Assembly: GCA_938022205.1 (NCBI GenBank)
Contig: CALIEB010000026.1
Location: forward strand, 1 to 64,000
DNA: 64,000 nt
Direction: 5' to 3'
DNA from: an uncultured Anaerolineae bacterium
GTDB taxonomy: Bacteria; Chloroflexota; Anaerolineae; Aggregatilineales; Phototrophicaceae
The position numbers and the translations under genes were made by a program. The notes under the pieces were generated by a model. It searched no databases and was not told where the DNA came from. It was given only the letters and a program-made list of their open reading frames with translations. Positions 1,818-41,653 of the stretch are shown here, one piece after another (positions within the stretch are counted from its first letter, which is position 1; the number at the start of each line of letters is the position of its first letter).

Positions 1818-2153
1818 ATGGTTGATATTACGATTACAGGGCATGATGGTGTGACCCTAGTCGAGGTGAGCGGGCGTATTGACAGCATGAACGCAAACGA
1901 GCTAGGAACAGCTCTTTCGAACGTGATTGATGAGGGGGCTGTGCGTCTTGTGCTAGACTTGAGCAGTGTTGAGTATATGAGCAGCGCGGGCTTGCGTGAG
2001 ATGGTGAACTCTCTGAAGAAGGCGAAGAAAGCCACTGGAGATTTGCGCCTTGCGCAGCCTTCTGACCGCGTGCGCGAAGTGTTGGAAATGGCGGGACTAG
2101 ACACGATTTTCCGCATTTATCCGACTTCTCTGGAAGCTGTGGGTAGTTATTAG
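1818..2153 (+). CDS. STAS-domain anti-sigma factor antagonist (SpoIIAA/RsbV-like)
   Basis: STAS fold with 'VEYMSSAGLREM' phosphorylatable serine motif; upstream GAGAGGAG RBS. Confidence 0.9.
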   Translation: MVDITITGHDGVTLVEVSGRIDSMNANELGTALSNVIDEGAVRLVLDLSSVEYMSSAGLREMVNSLKKAKKATGDLRLAQPSDRVREVLEMAGLDTIFRIYPTSLEAVGSY

Positions 2154-2167
2154 GCTGGGTTTGCCTA

Positions 2168-2575
2168 ATGAACTATCGCTTAGAAATTGAAGCCGTGATT
2201 GAGAACGTGCGCCGAGCGTGTGAGTTTGTCGTAGCTCTTGGTAAGGCGCACGGCTTGGATGACACTGCGTGTTATCATTGTGACCTTGCGGTTGAGGAAA
2301 TTTGCACCAACATCATCGAACACGGCTATAAGTACAACGGCAGCCAAGCGGTGATTGAGCTGCAAGTTGCTGTGCTGCCGAACTGTTTTAAGATCACGGT
2401 TGTCGACGACGCGCCGCCGTTTAACCCGCTAGCTGCTTCGTCGCCTGATCCATCTATGTCACTTGAGGAGCGCGTTGGCGGTGGTTGGGGCGTGGTGTTT
2501 GCTAAGAAGTTCTTAGATCTGTCTTATGAGTATCGCGACGGCAAAAACCACATGGTCATGTGCAAGCGGTATTAG
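2168..2575 (+). CDS. ATP-binding anti-sigma factor kinase (SpoIIAB/RsbW-like)
   Basis: N-box 'VEEICTNIIEHGY', 'DDAPPFNP', 'GGGWGVVFAKKFLD'; directly follows STAS gene. Confidence 0.88.
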   Translation: MNYRLEIEAVIENVRRACEFVVALGKAHGLDDTACYHCDLAVEEICTNIIEHGYKYNGSQAVIELQVAVLPNCFKITVVDDAPPFNPLAASSPDPSMSLEERVGGGWGVVFAKKFLDLSYEYRDGKNHMVMCKRY

Positions 2576-4218
2576 TTACGTCGCCAGCTCTTAATGTTGT
2601 TTAAGTTGACCTGCCCATAAGGTGGCAGGTAGTTATACACGCGCCCTCCTGCTGCGTCTGTGGTGAAGCACTCTTGTGCTGTAGGCGGAATGTCGCTGCG
2701 TCGCTGAAGCAGTGGCATCTCTGGGCTAAAGTGATTCCACGCGGCGCGCGCGATTTCTTCGATGAGCGGCCAGAGGCGTACATAGTCTTGAAACCCTGTC
2801 GCGCCCGTATCCTCCCAAATAAACACAGAAATAACATAGTCGCGTCCGTTGGGCGGAAAGACGATGCCGCTCACGCCCGTGACTTCGCCTACCCAGCCAT
2901 TTTTGTAGGCGATGCGCGTGTTGGGCGGTGCGCCTGCTTCCAGCAGCCGCTTCAGCTCTAACCCGCTCATAAGCTCGAGCATTTGGCGGCACTCGCGCTG
3001 GGTGAACTGGTCGGGGTAGACGCTAATCAACCCTGAGTTGTAGTTGGCGCAGTCGTAAATCATGGCGAACAGGGTGCCTAGGTCTTCGGCAGTTGTTTGG
3101 TTGTACGGGTCAGGATTAGTGTTATAGTTAGGGTTAGGCCTTGTGCGCGGCGGCGCAATGGAGCCGAAACGTTGGTTAGGCGAACCGTCGATAAAGGGTG
3201 CGGTGATAAATGTGTTGCGTGCGCCTAGACGTTGTACCACGTTGGTCACATCGGCGATACCGCGAAAGATGTCACCACCGCCGATAATGTCGCTCATGAT
3301 GAGGTTGGACGTAGAATTTGCGCTGCACAGCAGTGAGTTCGCCATAAGCCATGCGTCATCTTGAGTGGGTTCGCGGTTCAGCAAGCGAAAATAGTCAATC
3401 AAGATAGGCACTTTGATGGTGCTAGCGGCGGTAAACGCGACATCCCCTAGTAGGTTAATCTCTTCGCCGCTCTTAAGGTCAAGAATAAATACTGAAGCCA
3501 CGCTGGTTTGTCCATCGTAGATAAAACCTTGACTGTCAAGATAGGCAACGATGAGTTCTTTAAGTGCGCTTAGGCTGGTGTTGGCGGTCTCGCTGGTGAT
3601 AATGGGAACGTCTACGGTGCGGTTAGTGCTGCTGCGTAGGGCAGCATCAACAAGGCGGGCGGTAGCTTCGATGTCCATCGTATAGCCTTTCTCGCCTGCG
3701 TATACCGTAAAGGTCTGCGTGTCATAAGTTACGCTGCTGGCGGGGCGGTCAAACACCCGAGCAATCTCCTCGAGCTGACTTATCAGTGCGCTCTGCTGAT
3801 AATCTGCCACAAGCTGAATGTTGCGGATGTCGGTCTCGGTGCGGCCAAGCAAATAGCTGAAAAAGCGTTGCCAGAAGCCGCCGTCTGACTCACTGGCGGC
3901 GGTGGCATCCGCCAGCATGACGGGCAGATTAAGACGAAAACCAATGGAATCGGGTGTAATGTTAATTGGGTAACCCTGATAGTAGAGCGTGACAGGCTTA
4001 GAAAATGCTTCTTCAACTAGTGCAGCAGCTTGCACTTGGCTTTGGTTGCCCACGCGCACACCGCCGATGCTCAAACCCGCCGGCAGCGTGCTTTCTTGTC
4101 TTGTAAAGTTAATTAGCTCATTGACGAACAAAGCCGCTGCGCCTACCAAACACAGCATAGAGAAAATCATCAGGAAGGGAAATCTGCGCTTGGCGCGCGG
4201 CGTTGTGACAAGGCTCAT
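2572..4218 (-). CDS. Membrane-anchored YoaR-like domain plus class A beta-lactamase-like serine hydrolase
   Basis: N-terminal TM; YoaR-like region; SxxK 'STIK', 'KNG' box near the C-terminus. Confidence 0.75.
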   Translation of the reverse strand: MSLVTTPRAKRRFPFLMIFSMLCLVGAAALFVNELINFTRQESTLPAGLSIGGVRVGNQSQVQAAALVEEAFSKPVTLYYQGYPINITPDSIGFRLNLPVMLADATAASESDGGFWQRFFSYLLGRTETDIRNIQLVADYQQSALISQLEEIARVFDRPASSVTYDTQTFTVYAGEKGYTMDIEATARLVDAALRSSTNRTVDVPIITSETANTSLSALKELIVAYLDSQGFIYDGQTSVASVFILDLKSGEEINLLGDVAFTAASTIKVPILIDYFRLLNREPTQDDAWLMANSLLCSANSTSNLIMSDIIGGGDIFRGIADVTNVVQRLGARNTFITAPFIDGSPNQRFGSIAPPRTRPNPNYNTNPDPYNQTTAEDLGTLFAMIYDCANYNSGLISVYPDQFTQRECRQMLELMSGLELKRLLEAGAPPNTRIAYKNGWVGEVTGVSGIVFPPNGRDYVISVFIWEDTGATGFQDYVRLWPLIEEIARAAWNHFSPEMPLLQRRSDIPPTAQECFTTDAAGGRVYNYLPPYGQVNLNNIKSWRRN

Positions 4219-4224
4219 ATGCCG

Positions 4225-4764
4225 TTATCCTTCCCTCAGCTTTTGCGCGTTGATGATTGCCTGATACTGAAACGGGTGCAGTTTAGGCAGGGCGTTGGGC
4301 GCGAACCAACCATAGGCAAGCAGTTCACCGCTTAGCTTTTGCACGGTGTTTTGGATGCTGCACGTGTAGGCAAAATCGAGATGATTGCGCTGTGTTTTAT
4401 CGAACAACACGAGTGTCTCGGCGGTGGCGAGCAGCCCTAGCTCTTCTTCAAGCTCGCGGATGAGCGCGTCGGCGGGCTTTTCGTCGTTGCCAATCCAGCC
4501 ACCAGGCAACCCCCAGCGGTGGCGCGGATGAAACACATGCTCCACAAGCAGCACTTCGCCTTGCTCATTCCAAATGATACCAACAACGCCCATAGAGTAT
4601 TTCGTTTGGAAGAACCGATAGAGGTAATATGGGATACGCAATGTCCAAGGGTAGGCGGAAAAAATGCGAGCGATAAGGCGCATAAGCGCGGATGGTCGGT
4701 TTGTGGTTGCTTGCGAAGAGGTATCCATAGGCGAAAGTCTAAACCCTTTGCAAGGGTGCGTCAA
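4225..4764 (-). CDS. NUDIX hydrolase
   Basis: Nudix box GWIGNDEKPADALIRELEEELGL. Confidence 0.88.
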   Translation of the reverse strand: MTHPCKGFRLSPMDTSSQATTNRPSALMRLIARIFSAYPWTLRIPYYLYRFFQTKYSMGVVGIIWNEQGEVLLVEHVFHPRHRWGLPGGWIGNDEKPADALIRELEEELGLLATAETLVLFDKTQRNHLDFAYTCSIQNTVQKLSGELLAYGWFAPNALPKLHPFQYQAIINAQKLREG

Positions 4765-4857: not shown

Positions 4858-7800
4858 GTGCAACCAAGTTCTTTAGAGATTTTTGACCTGTTTATTAAAC
4901 CGCCGGCGGATGTTCTCTACTTTATGGTGGCGATTGCCTTGAGCGGCATGAGCTGGCTTTTGGCGTTAAGTCTGCGGGGCGCGCAAAGCGATAACGCGCT
5001 CGCACGCCGCTATGGGCTGGCGTTGAGCGCGGTGCTGCTGCTGTGGGTGGCGATGGTGATAGGTGCGCTGTACGTACAACTTACTAGACAAGATACACGT
5101 GTTATTTTACCGCCTTTAGAACGTCTTGTGAGCGCACTAGGCATGCTTGCGGTAGGCTGGGCGTTTTTGGGAACAAGCGCGCGCGTGTGGGAACGTCCTA
5201 TCCACGCGATTACGCTGCTGCTGATGGCGTTGGTCATTGTGGGCTATATCCTGACAAGCATCTTTTGGGCAAACGACCTTGCGACGCGTGCCAGCGACTT
5301 TAACCTTAACTATGGTGTTGTGTGGGCATTTGTGCATGTGGTGCTGAGCTTGTTGGGTGTGATAAGCTGCTTGCTTATGGCGCGTTATATTGTCGACGCG
5401 CCGCTAAAAAGCCTGTTTTTCGTGTTTATTGCGGCAGGCAGCGGCTACCACTTGGTGCAAGGCACGCTGATTGGCAGCTACAGCGGCACGATGCGCTTGG
5501 CGTACGTGTTAGCGTGGTTTATCGTGCCAGTGGTGCTGTATCGTCTACTAGCACAGGAACTGCACGCCAAAACGCTAGAAAACGCGCAGCTGCAAGAGCG
5601 TGTTGCTGCTAAATCTGAACCTGCGAGCGCGCCCGCACCACGCCCTGCACTCGCTAAACCCATGCCTGTGGAAACGCAGTCGGCGTTGTTGTTCAAAACA
5701 TTGGGACTGATTTTAGAAAATGCCAGTGCCGCAAGTTTGCCTGAGCGCATCGTCAAGGCGACATTGGATGTGCTACGGGCGGACATAGGGCTGCTCTTGC
5801 GCGTGCAAGATGCTAATTATGCTGACGTAATTTACGCTTATGACAAACTGCATCAGCAGACGATTTCTTCTGTGTCGCTCAACTTGAACCAACAGCCCAC
5901 GCTTGCCAACGCGATTGAGCGCGGCGCGGGGCGGGTGCTTTATCCCGACCGCAATCGCGAAGAGCTGGAAGACTTTTACACGCGCCTTGACATCGAAAAA
6001 ATTGGTGTGGTCTACTTTCAGCCGCTCATGCGTGGACAAGACCTTAAGGGTGTGCTTGTGGTGAGTTTGCCCTATGCTGAACGTGAGCTTGACCGTCATG
6101 AGCAAGAGCTGCTTAAAGCGATTGGCATTGTTGCAACCGACCTGATTGCGCTTAGCGATGAAGCTCGCGAGGCGCGCATTTTGGCGGAAGAGCGCGCTAT
6201 TCAAGCGATGGTTGAAGGGGTAGGGTTGTCGCAGCTTGGCAGCATGGCGACGATGTCCGTTGATAGTGCGAACTTGCAAATTGCCCGCGAGCAAATTGCT
6301 GAGCTGAGCAAGCAGGTGATGCAGCTAAAGATTCAGCTAGACGACGAGCGCAGCCGCCTAGCGAGCTTATTTAGTGATGCACAAGGTGATATGACTATCT
6401 CGCAAACTGTGCGCGCGATTAGCGAGGAGCAAACGCGCTTGCGCGAAGAGCGTGACCAACTGCTTAAGCGGTTGCAAGAGGCAGAGGCTGCCTTGCAAAG
6501 TACAAGCACCACGCCAGACCTACAGTTGTTGACGGACGCACTTGAGCGTGAACGACAGAACTTGCAAGAAGAGAAGGCGCGCTTACAGGCACAGTTAGAG
6601 GAGCTGCGCGCTCAAGCCAATGCTGAACTGCCGCAAGACACCAAGCAATTTGTGCAGCAAATGGTGGCGGAGCAAGCCCGCCTAGAGCGCGAACGCGACC
6701 AGCTGCAAGATAAGCTCGCCAGCATGCAGAGCCAGCTGCAGGCTTTGGGCATTAGCGACGGCGAAGCGGGGTTGGCGCAGGTGTTGGAGCAGGTTGTTGC
6801 CGAGCGGCAGGCGTTGCGTGTGCAAAACGAAACGCTGACGAGAGAGCGTGATTTGCTGTTGGCAGAGCGTGCGCGCCTTGAGGACGCGATTTTGCACGAG
6901 AAAGAGCGCGACCAGCGGCTTAGGGCGTTGCAGCAAGAGCTAGAGAACGTGGCGGGTGACCGTGAAACCGCTATAAAGCAGCGTGACAAAATGCGCGCAG
7001 AGCTAGACGACCTTAAGCGCAAGCTGGATGCAGTGAAAGAACATCGCGCGCGCTTGTTAGCGCAGATGAGTGGCTATGAAATGGAGCGCAACGAACTGCG
7101 CGATGAGCAGCTCAGGCTTTGGGCGGAGCTACAAGCGGCGAACAACGCGCGCAGCGAACTGACCCACGTTCGCGACACACTTTTGGCAGAAAATCAGGCA
7201 CTTAAGGCAGAGGTAGACCAGCTGTTGCTGCGTTTGGATGTTGACAAAGAACGCCTCAACATGCTTAATGAAGACGGCGTGCGCTCCTTGCAGCGCATGA
7301 TTCAAGAGCTTTCGCAATCTCGCAATGCGCTAGAGCAGGAGCTGAACCAAGCGCGGGCAGAGATAAACGCCCTGAAGCAAAAACCACCTGCGCACTTTGC
7401 TAGTGATTCTGGCGACAAGCCATCGAACGAACGCGGCGAGCTTTTTGTCAGTTTGGTGCAGGAGCTGCGCACGCCGCTCACGTCTCTTATTGGCTATGTG
7501 GACTTGCTGTTGAACGAATCGGCGGGCATTCTCGGTGAGATGCAGCGCAAGTTTTTGCAGCGCGTTAGCGCGAATATCAGCCGTCTGGAGACGATGATTA
7601 ACGACCTTATCAGCATCACGCAGCTTGAAGTGGGGCAGATGAAGCTAGAGACGATGCCCGTCAACATCGTGATGTTGATTGAGGAGAGCATTACCAACGC
7701 CTCGATACAGTTCCGCGAGAAGGGGCTGACGATTGCGCTGAATCTCACCGACGATTTGCCGCTGCTGCGTGCGGATAAGGACGCACTGGAGCAGGTCTTG

Positions 7801-8151
7801 GGGCAGTTGATGACGAACGCTTACTTGGTTTCGCCGCCAAGCAGCGAGATTAAGGTGAGCGCGGAATGCACACGCGCCGTCATTCGTCCACACGAGGACG
7901 AGCGCGACGTGGTGTTGGTGTCGATTGAGGATAGGGGAGGCGGGATTGCTGCTGAAGACGTGCCGCGCGTGTTCTCGCGCAAGTACCGCGCCGAAAACCC
8001 GCTTATACAAGGGTTGGGTGATTCTGGCGTGGGGCTATCGCTGGCAAAAACGTTGGTAGAAGCGCATCATGGGCGGTTGTGGGTGGAAACCCGCGAGGGG
8101 GTCGGCAGCAAATTTAGCTTTGTGCTTCCAATTGAGGACGAGCAAGGATAG
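4858..8151 (+). CDS. Histidine-kinase-like protein: polytopic N-terminus, GAF-like domain, long coiled coil, HisKA-like and HATPase_c domains
   Basis: GTG start; 'QELRTPLTSLIGY' H-box, N-box 'LMTNA', G1 'DRGGGI', G2 'GDSGVGLSL'. Confidence 0.88.
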   Translation: MQPSSLEIFDLFIKPPADVLYFMVAIALSGMSWLLALSLRGAQSDNALARRYGLALSAVLLLWVAMVIGALYVQLTRQDTRVILPPLERLVSALGMLAVGWAFLGTSARVWERPIHAITLLLMALVIVGYILTSIFWANDLATRASDFNLNYGVVWAFVHVVLSLLGVISCLLMARYIVDAPLKSLFFVFIAAGSGYHLVQGTLIGSYSGTMRLAYVLAWFIVPVVLYRLLAQELHAKTLENAQLQERVAAKSEPASAPAPRPALAKPMPVETQSALLFKTLGLILENASAASLPERIVKATLDVLRADIGLLLRVQDANYADVIYAYDKLHQQTISSVSLNLNQQPTLANAIERGAGRVLYPDRNREELEDFYTRLDIEKIGVVYFQPLMRGQDLKGVLVVSLPYAERELDRHEQELLKAIGIVATDLIALSDEAREARILAEERAIQAMVEGVGLSQLGSMATMSVDSANLQIAREQIAELSKQVMQLKIQLDDERSRLASLFSDAQGDMTISQTVRAISEEQTRLREERDQLLKRLQEAEAALQSTSTTPDLQLLTDALERERQNLQEEKARLQAQLEELRAQANAELPQDTKQFVQQMVAEQARLERERDQLQDKLASMQSQLQALGISDGEAGLAQVLEQVVAERQALRVQNETLTRERDLLLAERARLEDAILHEKERDQRLRALQQELENVAGDRETAIKQRDKMRAELDDLKRKLDAVKEHRARLLAQMSGYEMERNELRDEQLRLWAELQAANNARSELTHVRDTLLAENQALKAEVDQLLLRLDVDKERLNMLNEDGVRSLQRMIQELSQSRNALEQELNQARAEINALKQKPPAHFASDSGDKPSNERGELFVSLVQELRTPLTSLIGYVDLLLNESAGILGEMQRKFLQRVSANISRLETMINDLISITQLEVGQMKLETMPVNIVMLIEESITNASIQFREKGLTIALNLTDDLPLLRADKDALEQVLGQLMTNAYLVSPPSSEIKVSAECTRAVIRPHEDERDVVLVSIEDRGGGIAAEDVPRVFSRKYRAENPLIQGLGDSGVGLSLAKTLVEAHHGRLWVETREGVGSKFSFVLPIEDEQG

Positions 8152-8162
8152 GACAAAACGCT

Positions 8163-9266
8163 ATGCAGGGACGCGGTGAGTGGTGGATTGCGGGAGTGGT
8201 CGTCGTTGTCGTTGTGTTTGCGCTGGCGGCGGCGTGGTTGCTTTCTTCGCCTGAAGGCAGCACGGCGGATGCTCCAACCACAGTGGCGCAAGCGCAGGAA
8301 GCAGAGGTTTCTATGACCGCGACCTCTACAGCGATTGCGACATCTATGCCTACGTTGATGGCAACGCCAACGCAGGCTAGCGTGTCGTTGTCCGTTACCC
8401 CTAGCGTGACAGTTGCTCAACCCTCCGCCTCAGCATCTGCTACGTTGGCAGTAACGTCTACGCAACGTGTCGTAACGACAGCAGCACAATCCGCGAACAC
8501 AGAAACCCCCAGCGCGACGCACACGCCGACCGCGACGCGCACGCCGACTGCCACGTCTACGCTGACGCGCACCCCGACCGTGACGCACACGGCGACCTTG
8601 ACACAGACCCCGACTGCCACGTCCACGCTGACGCGCACCCCGACCGCGACGCGCACGCCGACGCACACGGCGACAATCACACCCAGTGCGACGCAGACAC
8701 CGTTGCCGACAGAGACCCCCCAAGCGCAAGCGTGTGTGAAGCCTGCGGGGTGGGTGAGCTATCGCGTGCAGCTGGGCAACACGCTCTTCTCGATTGCGCG
8801 GGCTGTGGGCAGCACAACAGCGGCTTTGCGCGATGCCAACTGTCTTGCCGACGAAAATCTCTTGTATGAGGGGCAAGAGTTGTTTGTGCCGCGCTTGCCG
8901 TCACAACCTGTTCCTGTGTTCGGACAGCAGAGCAGCACAAGCGCGTTGCGTGCTAGCGGCTGCCTTGTGCCTGAGACGCAGCTTAGCGCACCTGCGGTTG
9001 GAGCGCGTGTGAGCGGCACGTTTGATTTGATAGGGACGGCAACACGCGATAGCTTTTGGTACTACAAAATTGAGATACGGCGCGACGGTGTCAGCGGCTA
9101 TGATTTTTACGCAGATGGCTACACGCCTGTGCAGGATGGGGTATTGGCACGCATTGACACGCGCATCTTTGGCACAGGGCTTTACTTTGTGCGCTTGTCG
9201 GTTGTCGACGAGAGAGGCAGCATCAAGGCGGATGCTTTCTGCGAGATACCGCTGTATTTTGAATAA
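8163..9266 (+). CDS. LysM-domain protein with single N-terminal TM and Thr/Pro-rich linker
   Basis: 'VSYRVQLGNTLFSIARAVGSTTAALRDANCLADENLLYEGQELFVP' LysM; TPTATRTPT linker. Confidence 0.85.
   Translation: MQGRGEWWIAGVVVVVVVFALAAAWLLSSPEGSTADAPTTVAQAQEAEVSMTATSTAIATSMPTLMATPTQASVSLSVTPSVTVAQPSASASATLAVTSTQRVVTTAAQSANTETPSATHTPTATRTPTATSTLTRTPTVTHTATLTQTPTATSTLTRTPTATRTPTHTATITPSATQTPLPTETPQAQACVKPAGWVSYRVQLGNTLFSIARAVGSTTAALRDANCLADENLLYEGQELFVPRLPSQPVPVFGQQSSTSALRASGCLVPETQLSAPAVGARVSGTFDLIGTATRDSFWYYKIEIRRDGVSGYDFYADGYTPVQDGVLARIDTRIFGTGLYFVRLSVVDERGSIKADAFCEIPLYFE
8546..8646 (+). repeat. Low-complexity Thr/Pro-coding region with a direct repeat of about 35 bp at 66-bp spacing
   Basis: GACTGCCACGTCTACGCTGACGCGCACCCCGACCG at 8546 recurs with one mismatch at 8612. 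Confidence 0.7.
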
Positions 9267-9341
9267 CGGCACTTGTGCAAACCATTTGCCGTTGGCTAAA
9301 CTTACTTCCTTAGTTTTTGATGATTTGGGAAAGAAGTGTGC

Positions 9342-10940
9342 ATGACCCCCTCGCGTCCTTCGTTTTTAGCGCGCTTAGTGCGTTTTTTCTCGTTTTTCTT
9401 GTTTGTTTTTGTGCCGTTTTTGCTGCTGATTGGCTCGCTGTGGATGGCATGGCGTGTCGTCGACCTCGCCAGCGCGCAAGCGGCAACAAGCGACGTGCTG
9501 CGCAGCCGTGCGCAGGATTATGCGCTGACGGCAACCGCTATCAACCAACTGACAGATGACGAGGCGCACGCTGCATCTAGGCGGTTAGCTGCCCAATTTG
9601 TGACCAACACACCTGATTTTGTGCCGCCTACGGCTACGCCCATTCCGCTGCCGACACAGCCGCCTGCACAAAGCACGCCTATCCCTATTCCAACGTTCTT
9701 TCCACCGCGCGCGGCATCTATCACCGAAATTGCGGGAACGGCTGTGCCTACGCCTGTTCCGTTAATCCCGCGCAACTATGAACTGGTCAACGTTGTGCTG
9801 CTTGGCTCGGATGACGAGGTCGTTGGTGACGGCATTACGCGCACGGACACGATGATTATTGTGTCGATTAACACGGAACGCCGCAGCGTGTCGATGCTTA
9901 GTTTGCCGCGTGACTTATTCGTCTACGTGCCAACGCCGACAATGACGCGCCTTAACACTGTGTACGGCATCGGCGAGAGCTTCGGCTGGAGTGGCGGCGG
10001 ATTTGGCTTGCTGCGCGAGACGATTTTCTACAACTTTGGCATCAACGTACACTATTACGCTAAGGTGAACTTTAGTGGCTTTGAGCGCATTATTGACACG
10101 TTGGGTGGGGTAGAAATCGCTGTCGACTGCACCTATCAGGACTACTATCCTGTGGAAGATTTTGACATTTCGCGCCCGATAGAAGAGAACTACAAGCTGC
10201 GCACGCTGCCGATTGGCTACTACAAGATGAACGGCTTTGACGCGCTTTGGTACGCGCGCACGCGCCGCTTAACGACCGATTTCGACCGTGGACGGCGGCA
10301 GCAGCAGCTTTTGCGGGCGATGCTGCGGGCGGGCTTGCAAAGCGGGCAGCTGGCTAACTTGCCAACGCTGTGGGGCGAATTGACGCAAGTGGTGCAGACG
10401 AACATGCCGTTCGACGTGATGTTGGGGTTGCTGCCGATTGCGCTGAATCTCGATGTTAGCCGTATTCAAGATTACACGTTGGTGCGTACCTATCACACCA
10501 CGCCGTGGCAGCCTACGAGCGGTAGCCTAGCCGGACAGTCTGTTCAGCTGCCTAATTATGAGCCAATTCGCCAGCTTCTGACCGAATTCTATCAACCGCC
10601 TACTGACAGCCAAATTGCTTTGGCGCGGGTGCGCATTGAAGTTTACAACGGCACGGCAAACGCAGATTGGGACAAAGTGGCGGCGGAGCGGCTGCGTTAC
10701 TTGGGATTGCCGGCGGTGGCGATGGGGCAAGCCGACACGGATACCTATGCGGATACCGTAATTATTGACCGTGTGGCGGAAGAAAAGGGCAGCCCTTTGC
10801 CGCGCATCCTGCGTGAACTTAACGCAACTGCCGCTAACGTGCGCGTGCAACCCGACCCTAATCGCACGCATGAGTATACGATTATTGTGGGGGCAAGCTA
10901 TAACTCTTGCCCCGTTAACGTGCTGCCGATTGACCAGTAG
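9342..10940 (+). CDS. LytR-CpsA-Psr (LCP) family protein with C-terminal LytR_C-like domain
   Basis: 'VLLGSDDEVVGDGITRTDTMIIVSINTERRSVSMLSLPRDLFV', 'RTRRLTTDFDRGRRQQQLL'; C-terminal 'RIEVYNGTANADWDKVAAERL'. Confidence 0.9.
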   Translation: MTPSRPSFLARLVRFFSFFLFVFVPFLLLIGSLWMAWRVVDLASAQAATSDVLRSRAQDYALTATAINQLTDDEAHAASRRLAAQFVTNTPDFVPPTATPIPLPTQPPAQSTPIPIPTFFPPRAASITEIAGTAVPTPVPLIPRNYELVNVVLLGSDDEVVGDGITRTDTMIIVSINTERRSVSMLSLPRDLFVYVPTPTMTRLNTVYGIGESFGWSGGGFGLLRETIFYNFGINVHYYAKVNFSGFERIIDTLGGVEIAVDCTYQDYYPVEDFDISRPIEENYKLRTLPIGYYKMNGFDALWYARTRRLTTDFDRGRRQQQLLRAMLRAGLQSGQLANLPTLWGELTQVVQTNMPFDVMLGLLPIALNLDVSRIQDYTLVRTYHTTPWQPTSGSLAGQSVQLPNYEPIRQLLTEFYQPPTDSQIALARVRIEVYNGTANADWDKVAAERLRYLGLPAVAMGQADTDTYADTVIIDRVAEEKGSPLPRILRELNATAANVRVQPDPNRTHEYTIIVGASYNSCPVNVLPIDQ

Positions 10941-40516: not shown

Positions 40517-41653
40517 TTATCTTTCTGCAGGTTCTGTGCTATGGTCAGGCTTCGTGCTGCCGTTGGTTTTGATGTCAAACAGCGGCATGGTAAAGCTGAA
40601 CACGCTGCCTTTGCCTTCTTCGCTGTTTACTGTAATCTCGCTTTGGTGGCGGTCAAGGATGAGTTTGACGATAGAAAGCCCGATGCCCATGCCACCATAG
40701 CGGCGGGTCGATGAGCTGTCAACTTGATAAAACATGTCGAAGATGTGGTGAATTTTTTCGGAAGAAATGCCTATGCCCGTGTCGCGCACCTCTATCACAA
40801 TATGGCTGCCTTGTTGATGCGCTGTAACGAGCACTTTGCCGTCGCTAAACTTGAGCGCGTTGTCAATTAAGAGCTGTAGCACCGTGCTTAACCCTTGTTT
40901 GTCTGCGTAAACCGGTGGTAGGGCAGGCTGCGTTTGCAGTTCGATGCGGTCGATGTCATTTTTGCGCTCCCAGATGCGGCGCATCGTGCGCTTGACGTGT
41001 TCAACTACGTCGCGCAAGATAATCGGGCTGGGAGCGACATCAAGACTGTTGCCCAAGAGCGTGATGTTCTGGATGATAAGCTCGAGGCGCGCGGTGGCAT
41101 TCTCGGCGTATGTGACCAGTTTTTTGTCGCTTTCGGGAATGGTGTTGACTGTGTCACTGATGAGCGCGATAGCAGCTTTAAGCTGTAGTAGGGGTGTTTT
41201 TAACTCATGAGAGACATTGCGCACAATCGCGTTTTTAAGCAGCTCTACTTCGTTGTTGAGCTGTTTTTGCTGGTCGCGCTGGGCATCGTATAAATGTGCC
41301 TTTGTTTCTGCCGCAAGGTGTTGACGGTGCTTGCTTAGCAAGCGCGAGAGCTGCTTGGTGAGATAGGGCTGCTGCAGATTGTAGACAAAATCGGCGGCGG
41401 TTTCCAACGGCTCGCTTGCATCATCAGCAGCTAGCAACACCACAAGCGGGCGCACGACACGCGCCTGCCATTCAACAAATGCACTCGTAGGCGTGCTGTT
41501 TTCAAGAATCAAAATCGCGTCTACGTCCGCTTTGTCCCAAGCGGCAGTAGGGTCAAAGTCCCGCGCCACAACCAGACGATAGCCTTGCGTCTGCAGTGCA
41601 TCCAACAGCGCGTTAAGCGTAGTATCTGTTGATTCTTGGTGTGAAACAGCCAT
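40517..41653 (-). CDS. Sensor histidine kinase with N-terminal receiver-like region
   Basis: H-box 'NVSHELKTPLLQLKAAI', N-box, 'VRDTGIGI', 'GGMGIGLSIVKLILDRH'. Confidence 0.92.
   Translation of the reverse strand: MAVSHQESTDTTLNALLDALQTQGYRLVVARDFDPTAAWDKADVDAILILENSTPTSAFVEWQARVVRPLVVLLAADDASEPLETAADFVYNLQQPYLTKQLSRLLSKHRQHLAAETKAHLYDAQRDQQKQLNNEVELLKNAIVRNVSHELKTPLLQLKAAIALISDTVNTIPESDKKLVTYAENATARLELIIQNITLLGNSLDVAPSPIILRDVVEHVKRTMRRIWERKNDIDRIELQTQPALPPVYADKQGLSTVLQLLIDNALKFSDGKVLVTAHQQGSHIVIEVRDTGIGISSEKIHHIFDMFYQVDSSSTRRYGGMGIGLSIVKLILDRHQSEITVNSEEGKGSVFSFTMPLFDIKTNGSTKPDHSTEPAER

Follow-up and report, generated by a model that had tools for sequence, protein, structure and literature searches.

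To our knowledge, few bacterial pseudo-histidine kinases have been well characterized, and DivL of Caulobacter is the main worked example. Monitoring of the cell wall by a histidine kinase is known from Gram-positive bacteria, where it involves WalK. The kinase activity of DivL itself is dispensable for its function and the protein shows no phosphatase activity; by docking, it detects DivK~P, and it exerts control over another kinase (PMC4211667), and a link between DivL and CckA has been described (PMC9491836). RetS of Pseudomonas blocks the autophosphorylation of the kinase GacS (PMC4866733). Here, we analyzed a stretch of 64,000 nucleotides (the window) from an uncultured Anaerolineae bacterium (contig CALIEB010000026.1), which encodes a large histidine kinase-like protein with a Gln at the position of the phospho-accepting His. 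Judging from sequence comparison and structural modeling, this protein is a pseudo-histidine kinase, in which the fold is conserved and the loss of the acceptor is conserved by descent.

From the N- to the C-terminus, the predicted protein consists of 7TM, GAF, coiled-coil, HisKA and HATPase parts (Table 1). Both C-terminal domains readily match the Pfam core models, with 47.7 bits for HisKA (cut-off 26.9) and 74 bits for HATPase_c (cut-off 26.4). The NCBIfam names WalK and PnpS were rejected, as the scores are far below the cut-offs (142.8 vs. 725 bits for WalK). AlphaFold2 modeling (53 orthologues) of residues 1–440, at a pLDDT of 92.1, gave a GAF domain preceded by seven long helices of membrane type, and residues 850–1097 were modeled at a pLDDT of 82.9. 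The C-terminal model has fold matches in Foldseek to HK853, ZraS, WalK, RetS and DivL; a fold relative of the 7TM part was sought in the PDB as well, and none was present among the matches listed. Pfam GAF models gave matches in up to 20 of the 53 orthologues, the window member not being among these. The original prediction had placed a coiled coil of approximately 400 residues before the ATP-binding half, and the composition of residues 441–850, dominated by A, E, L, Q and R and nearly without G and P, is consistent with such a putative coiled coil.

Table 1. Features of the predicted pseudo-histidine kinase and its gene neighborhood in the window.
Feature	Position	Strand	Basis
STAS protein and HATPase_c_2 (RsbW-like) pair	1818..2575	+	Pfam; conserved neighbors within family
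Beta-lactamase-fold protein with PG_binding_4	2572..4218	-	Pfam; conserved neighbor in order
NUDIX gene, divergent, upstream	4225..4764	-	Pfam; kept within family
Predicted pseudo-histidine kinase gene, 1097 aa, GTG start	4858..8151	+	ORF; Pfam; AlphaFold2 models
Seven predicted TM helices, aa ~17-235	4906..5562	+	AlphaFold2 helices, hydropathy
GAF domain, aa ~271-440	5668..6177	+	Foldseek PDB matches are GAF domains
Long helical segment, putative coiled coil, aa ~441-850	6178..7407	+	A/E/L/Q/R-rich, 1% Pro, almost no Gly
HisKA / DHp domain, aa 859-924	7432..7629	+	Pfam PF00512, E 1.6e-12
Q868 replacing phospho-accepting His (CAG)	7459-7461	+	Gln also in 112/130 orthologous domains
T872 (+4 from H-box), retained, phosphatase-type Thr/Asn position	7471..7473	+	T 103, Q 26, A 1 of 130
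HATPase_c / CA domain, aa 973-1093	7774..8136	+	Pfam PF02518, E 1.7e-20
Degenerate N-box QLMTNAYLVSP vs. canonical NLxxNAxKYxP	7804..7836	+	Residue counts in 130 domains
G1 box DRGGG (D1025-G1029), retained	7930..7944	+	D 130/130, G1029 130/130
G2 box GLGDSGVG (1052-1059), retained	8011..8034	+	Residue counts in 130 domains
LysM partner gene, 367 aa: one TM helix, Thr/Pro-rich stalk, LysM, C-terminal beta-type domain	8163..9266	+	Pfam
LysM domain of partner, aa 200-243	8760..8891	+	Pfam E 6.7e-10
LytR-CpsA-Psr family gene, third in same direction	9336..10940	+	Pfam E 3.5e-32; conserved mainly in order

The H-box surroundings of the window protein read FVSLVQELRTPLTSLIGYVDLL, and both the position and the codon of the Gln are exactly as originally predicted. 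An active histidine kinase carries a phospho-acceptor His at this position; the window protein carries Q868, and 125 of the 130 orthologous domains are non-His as well. The suggestion of a pseudokinase or signal scaffold rather than an autokinase is therefore well supported at the level of sequence. All 42 HisKA domains of the same genome were read, and His is present in the 41 others, the window protein being alone in carrying Gln. As orthologues carry Gln too, its occurrence is not a matter of chance. In the alignment columns of the DHp helices, no other His stood out as conserved. The stated absence of a nearby response regulator was borne out too, as the contig of the window encodes no receiver domains and 63 are found elsewhere in the genome. 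A second, canonical histidine kinase within the window (40517–41653, minus strand) carries SHELKTP.

Full-length orthologues with approximately 30–50% identity are present in nearly all of 60 related genomes from the same family and order, and matches to the C-terminal half, with approximately 43–54% identity, extend to a large number of further families in this class. By their record titles, members occur in Anaerolineae, Aggregatilineales, Phototrophicales, Thermoflexus, Ardenticatenia and Anaerolineales, and by their group codes they come from no fewer than 18 groups of family level within the class (Anaerolineae sensu lato). Strong matches were confined to this class in a 399-genome sample of the phylum; the collection scan used short peptide patterns that pick up close relatives only, and a wider spread beyond the class is possible. 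Two records with other titles, L248 (Bacteroidetes) and L213 (Pleurocapsa minor), have sequences like those of the Chloroflexota family, with L248 falling within it on the tree, and probably represent mis-binned or mislabeled assemblies. Among five related genomes with few kinase-like loci (G012, G019, G035, G017, and G033) the pseudokinase was lost or its H-box has decayed (RNLYAP, DELKTP); G012 is without a strong orthologue and shows a weak match to the C-terminal domain only, and G019 and G035 have neither an orthologue of full-length strength nor a LysM partner.

For the comparison of the H-box we used 130 distinct kinase-core domains scoring at least 150 bits, most of which derive from metagenome-assembled genomes. 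As some His-bearing outgroups score 150–186 bits, family membership was decided by the tree and not by the score. The alignment of orthologues that the original prediction had called for revealed Gln in 112 of the domains, another non-His residue in 13 (N8, S2, E1, R1, D1) and His in 5; in a subset with mutual identity below 70%, Gln is found in 53 of 62. The lower-scoring comparison histidine kinases, a non-random set taken from the same genome, fetched flanks and scan hits, have His in 39 of 39 cases, and His is likewise present in all of 18 further, closer relatives fetched as outgroups. A single change of CAG to CAC or CAT would suffice to yield His. Nothing was found in favor of an assembly error or a recent mutation of the strain, and with Gln specified by both codons in 112 distinct domains from independently assembled genomes this reading is ruled out, with next to no probability left to it.

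In a maximum-likelihood tree, the family forms one clade, set apart from 27 His-bearing kinases by a 100/99 branch. The two earliest-branching groups combine Gln with a retained N-box Asn...Lys pair (NLLxNAxK); all other members lack this pair and cluster together as a 100/99 group. As reconstructed from these sequences, Gln is the ancestral state in the family, and the combination in the earliest branches indicates that the H-box was lost first and the N-box second. His reappears at four places (L015; L020; L164; L167 with L234). His-bearing orthologues had been named beforehand as evidence that would count against a pseudokinase, but the five members concerned nest inside the Gln clade and are all without the N-box Asn...Lys, and for this reason an active family is not the simplest reading of the regained His. 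Asn marks a Thermoflexus-like group, and the single Asp and Arg belong to two fast-evolving lineages. At the H-box position, parsimony counts 23 synonymous CAG/CAA changes against 10 residue replacements, both approximate because of multiple hits. A Gln codon has nine single-base neighbors, of which one is synonymous, one a stop and seven code for another residue; against this background, such an excess of silent changes points to purifying selection on Gln. In group f34 (L168–L191) QELRTP has changed to QELRQP, and 26 sequences in all have Gln at +4.

The ATP-binding half had been described as intact, which is only partly right. Of the complete N-box (Asn, Asn, Lys/Arg/His, aromatic), the window protein has kept N987, with Q983, L990 and V991 at the other positions. 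The first N-box Asn is retained in 16 of the 130 domains and the N-box Lys in the same 16 only, all of them early-branching; the aromatic residue is found in none of the 130, vs. 38 Tyr/Phe and one Trp in the 39 controls. The Tyr of WalK that corresponds to this aromatic residue stacks on the adenine, and in EnvZ autokinase activity, but not the binding of ATP, depends on the first N-box Asn, and the second Asn binds Mg (PMC5633905). The Mg-binding N987 is invariant in the family (130/130), and R871, P873, G1027, F1039 and the glycines of the G2 box are retained as well. The kinase-associated Glu869, beside the lost His, is Glu in 120 and Asp in 8 of the 130 domains. For an ATP-driven conformational switch, one of the roles initially envisaged, the evidence points both ways: the glycine boxes, the Asp of G1 and the Asn that binds Mg are retained, but the N-box has lost its first Asn, its Lys and the aromatic residue that stacks on adenine. 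With Glu869 retained and hardly any variation at N987, D1025, G1 and G2, selection may still act on some ATP-dependent chemistry.

Among the longer segments of DHp-CA, residues 874–903 below the H-box are the best conserved, with a mean entropy of 0.91 bits vs. 1.64 for the CA domain. In characterized kinases it is this part of the DHp that carries the docking of the receiver, and the match suggests that the family has a conserved docking partner.

The best clue to the input is provided by the LysM gene downstream, which had been overlooked in the original prediction and begins 11 bp after the pseudokinase gene. A LysM-coding stretch is present within 2.6 kb downstream at 91 of 110 family loci vs. 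0 of 39 other histidine kinases, numbers that depend on the available flanks and on a home-made LysM profile. Pfam confirms the domain in 10 of 10 downstream proteins sampled from diverse groups, and the spacing between the two genes is mostly −11 to +15 bp. The tie is one of gene linkage, not of interaction, and no paper on a LysM/histidine kinase pair in Chloroflexota was found in the literature searched. The length of the stalk of the partner differs widely among species; at L139:10019-14776 the partner is 1585 residues long, with a greatly lengthened Thr/Pro-rich stalk.

The further surroundings, with LytR-CpsA-Psr, PG_binding_4, NUDIX and STAS/anti-sigma genes in addition to LysM, point to the cell envelope. 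The STAS and RsbW-like HATPase_c_2 pair just upstream is a possible partner-switching module. In six loci of early-branching groups (L153, L155, L156, L236, L246, and L247) a His-bearing histidine kinase is located near the pseudokinase-LysM pair; in L155 and L156 it is convergent and adjoins an MnmE-like gene. An adjoining active kinase was rejected as a constant partner, since such a kinase is found at a distance of a few kb in several early-branching loci and is absent from the order of the window.

On balance, we consider it likely that these proteins constitute a vertically inherited, class-wide family of pseudo-histidine kinases that conveys the status of the cell wall, received via the LysM partner, to a two-component pathway by docking and not by phosphotransfer. 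The window protein would then probably be a cell-wall signaling protein that is not itself a kinase. The phospho-accepting His was replaced by Gln in an ancestor; the decay of the N-box residues on which autokinase activity depends came later and affected most lineages, with the fold, the ATP/Mg-binding core and the docking surface of the DHp retained. The membrane-anchored LysM protein would bind peptidoglycan outside the cell and probably report the state of the wall to the 7TM/GAF half, from where the signal would travel along the long coiled coil to cause a conformational change of the DHp/CA domains. The output is most likely by docking, as is the case for DivL and RetS, in which the DHp surface would bind a response regulator, possibly in one phospho-state, or pair with an active histidine kinase. 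Counting against this reading are the retained Glu869 and nucleotide-site residues, the five members that have regained His and the lack of a receiver gene nearby in this genome. We put forward only tentatively, and hold to be rather doubtful, a bolder version with a class-wide, two-gene wall surveillance unit of a LysM receptor and a 7TM pseudokinase, in which Gln would have made the protein a signal-gated, amide-type regulator phosphatase or a sensor of the phospho-receiver, and in which decay would be ordered, from the H-box to the N-box and, third, in one clade, the phosphatase residue.

The strongest rival is a dedicated response-regulator phosphatase, in which Gln868 (or Asn) and Thr872 would position the hydrolytic water on the phospho-aspartate and input from the LysM/7TM side would act as the switch. 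Amides are known to position the water that hydrolyzes the receiver phospho-aspartate in CheZ, CheX and HisKA_3 proteins, and the replacements at the H-box are overwhelmingly amides (Q112 and N8 of 130). The phosphatase activity of EnvZ and CrdS is enhanced by the conserved His, but not strictly dependent on it (PMC3510030). However, one clade of the QELRQP type has replaced Thr872 with Gln, and the matching Asn-to-Gln change abolished the phosphatase activity of CrdS (PMC3510030), so that the 26 sequences with Gln at this essential Thr/Asn position weaken a phosphatase-only role for the family as a whole. Moreover, the H260A substitution lowered the phosphatase activity of HK853 (PMC5727384), and DivL has retained neither kinase nor phosphatase activity (PMC4211667). 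Overall, we regard a dedicated phosphatase as unlikely.

Quite improbable, in our opinion, is an unusual but active kinase that phosphorylates another residue, either its own or, by trans-phosphorylation in a heterodimer, that of a partner kinase. The invariance of N987, D1025 and G1029 in all 130 domains would fit such an activity, as would the N-box Asn and Lys of the early-branching Gln members, but the pair is missing from the window member and 113 others, another conserved His was not seen in the DHp helices, and the adenine-stacking aromatic residue is gone throughout. An envelope protein that serves only as a structural element or scaffold, outside two-component signaling, and in which the transmitter fold is kept for dimerization alone, would suit the long coiled coil, the LysM neighbor at most loci and the nearby LytR-CpsA-Psr gene. 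The conserved surface below the H-box and the retained nucleotide-site residues exceed what dimerization requires, though, and where a genome has few kinase-like loci, members have disappeared or degenerated, which makes a scaffold very improbable.

A pseudokinase family of this type offers a natural series for asking what the role of a kinase core is once phosphorylation is gone, and hints at how the Anaerolineae, which are widespread and little-studied, may monitor their cell wall. Like DivL, the family combines the HisKA/HATPase fold with replacement of the His in nearly all orthologues of a large clade, and DivL (PDB 4q20) matches the window protein in sequence and fold with 27–32% identity over the fold alignment. 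DivL differs in having a Tyr at the acceptor position and N-terminal PAS sensors, vs. Gln and 7TM-GAF-coiled coil in the window protein, and in working with DivK and CckA; no LysM partner has been described for it. Since other proteins match better than DivL, we make no claim of orthology. RetS, a fold match as well (6dk7/6dk8), shares the principle of a kinase core that regulates another kinase, but is a hybrid kinase with different input domains and belongs to another lineage. RcsD, of the enterobacterial Rcs envelope-stress phosphorelay, has a phosphate-carrying Hpt domain, and none is present in the window protein. By sequence, WalK/VicK rank with the closest of the well-known kinase models and structures, but WalK retains both the His and the N-box. 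The kind of protein is already known, but the family, real and deeply conserved, is new; its evolutionary steps can be read unusually clearly, and an input from the cell wall is plausible. Next to DivL, it would be a second family of such depth, in which the acceptor was replaced by a different residue, the loss proceeded in an order whose intermediates still exist, and a wall-binding protein recurs as the partner.
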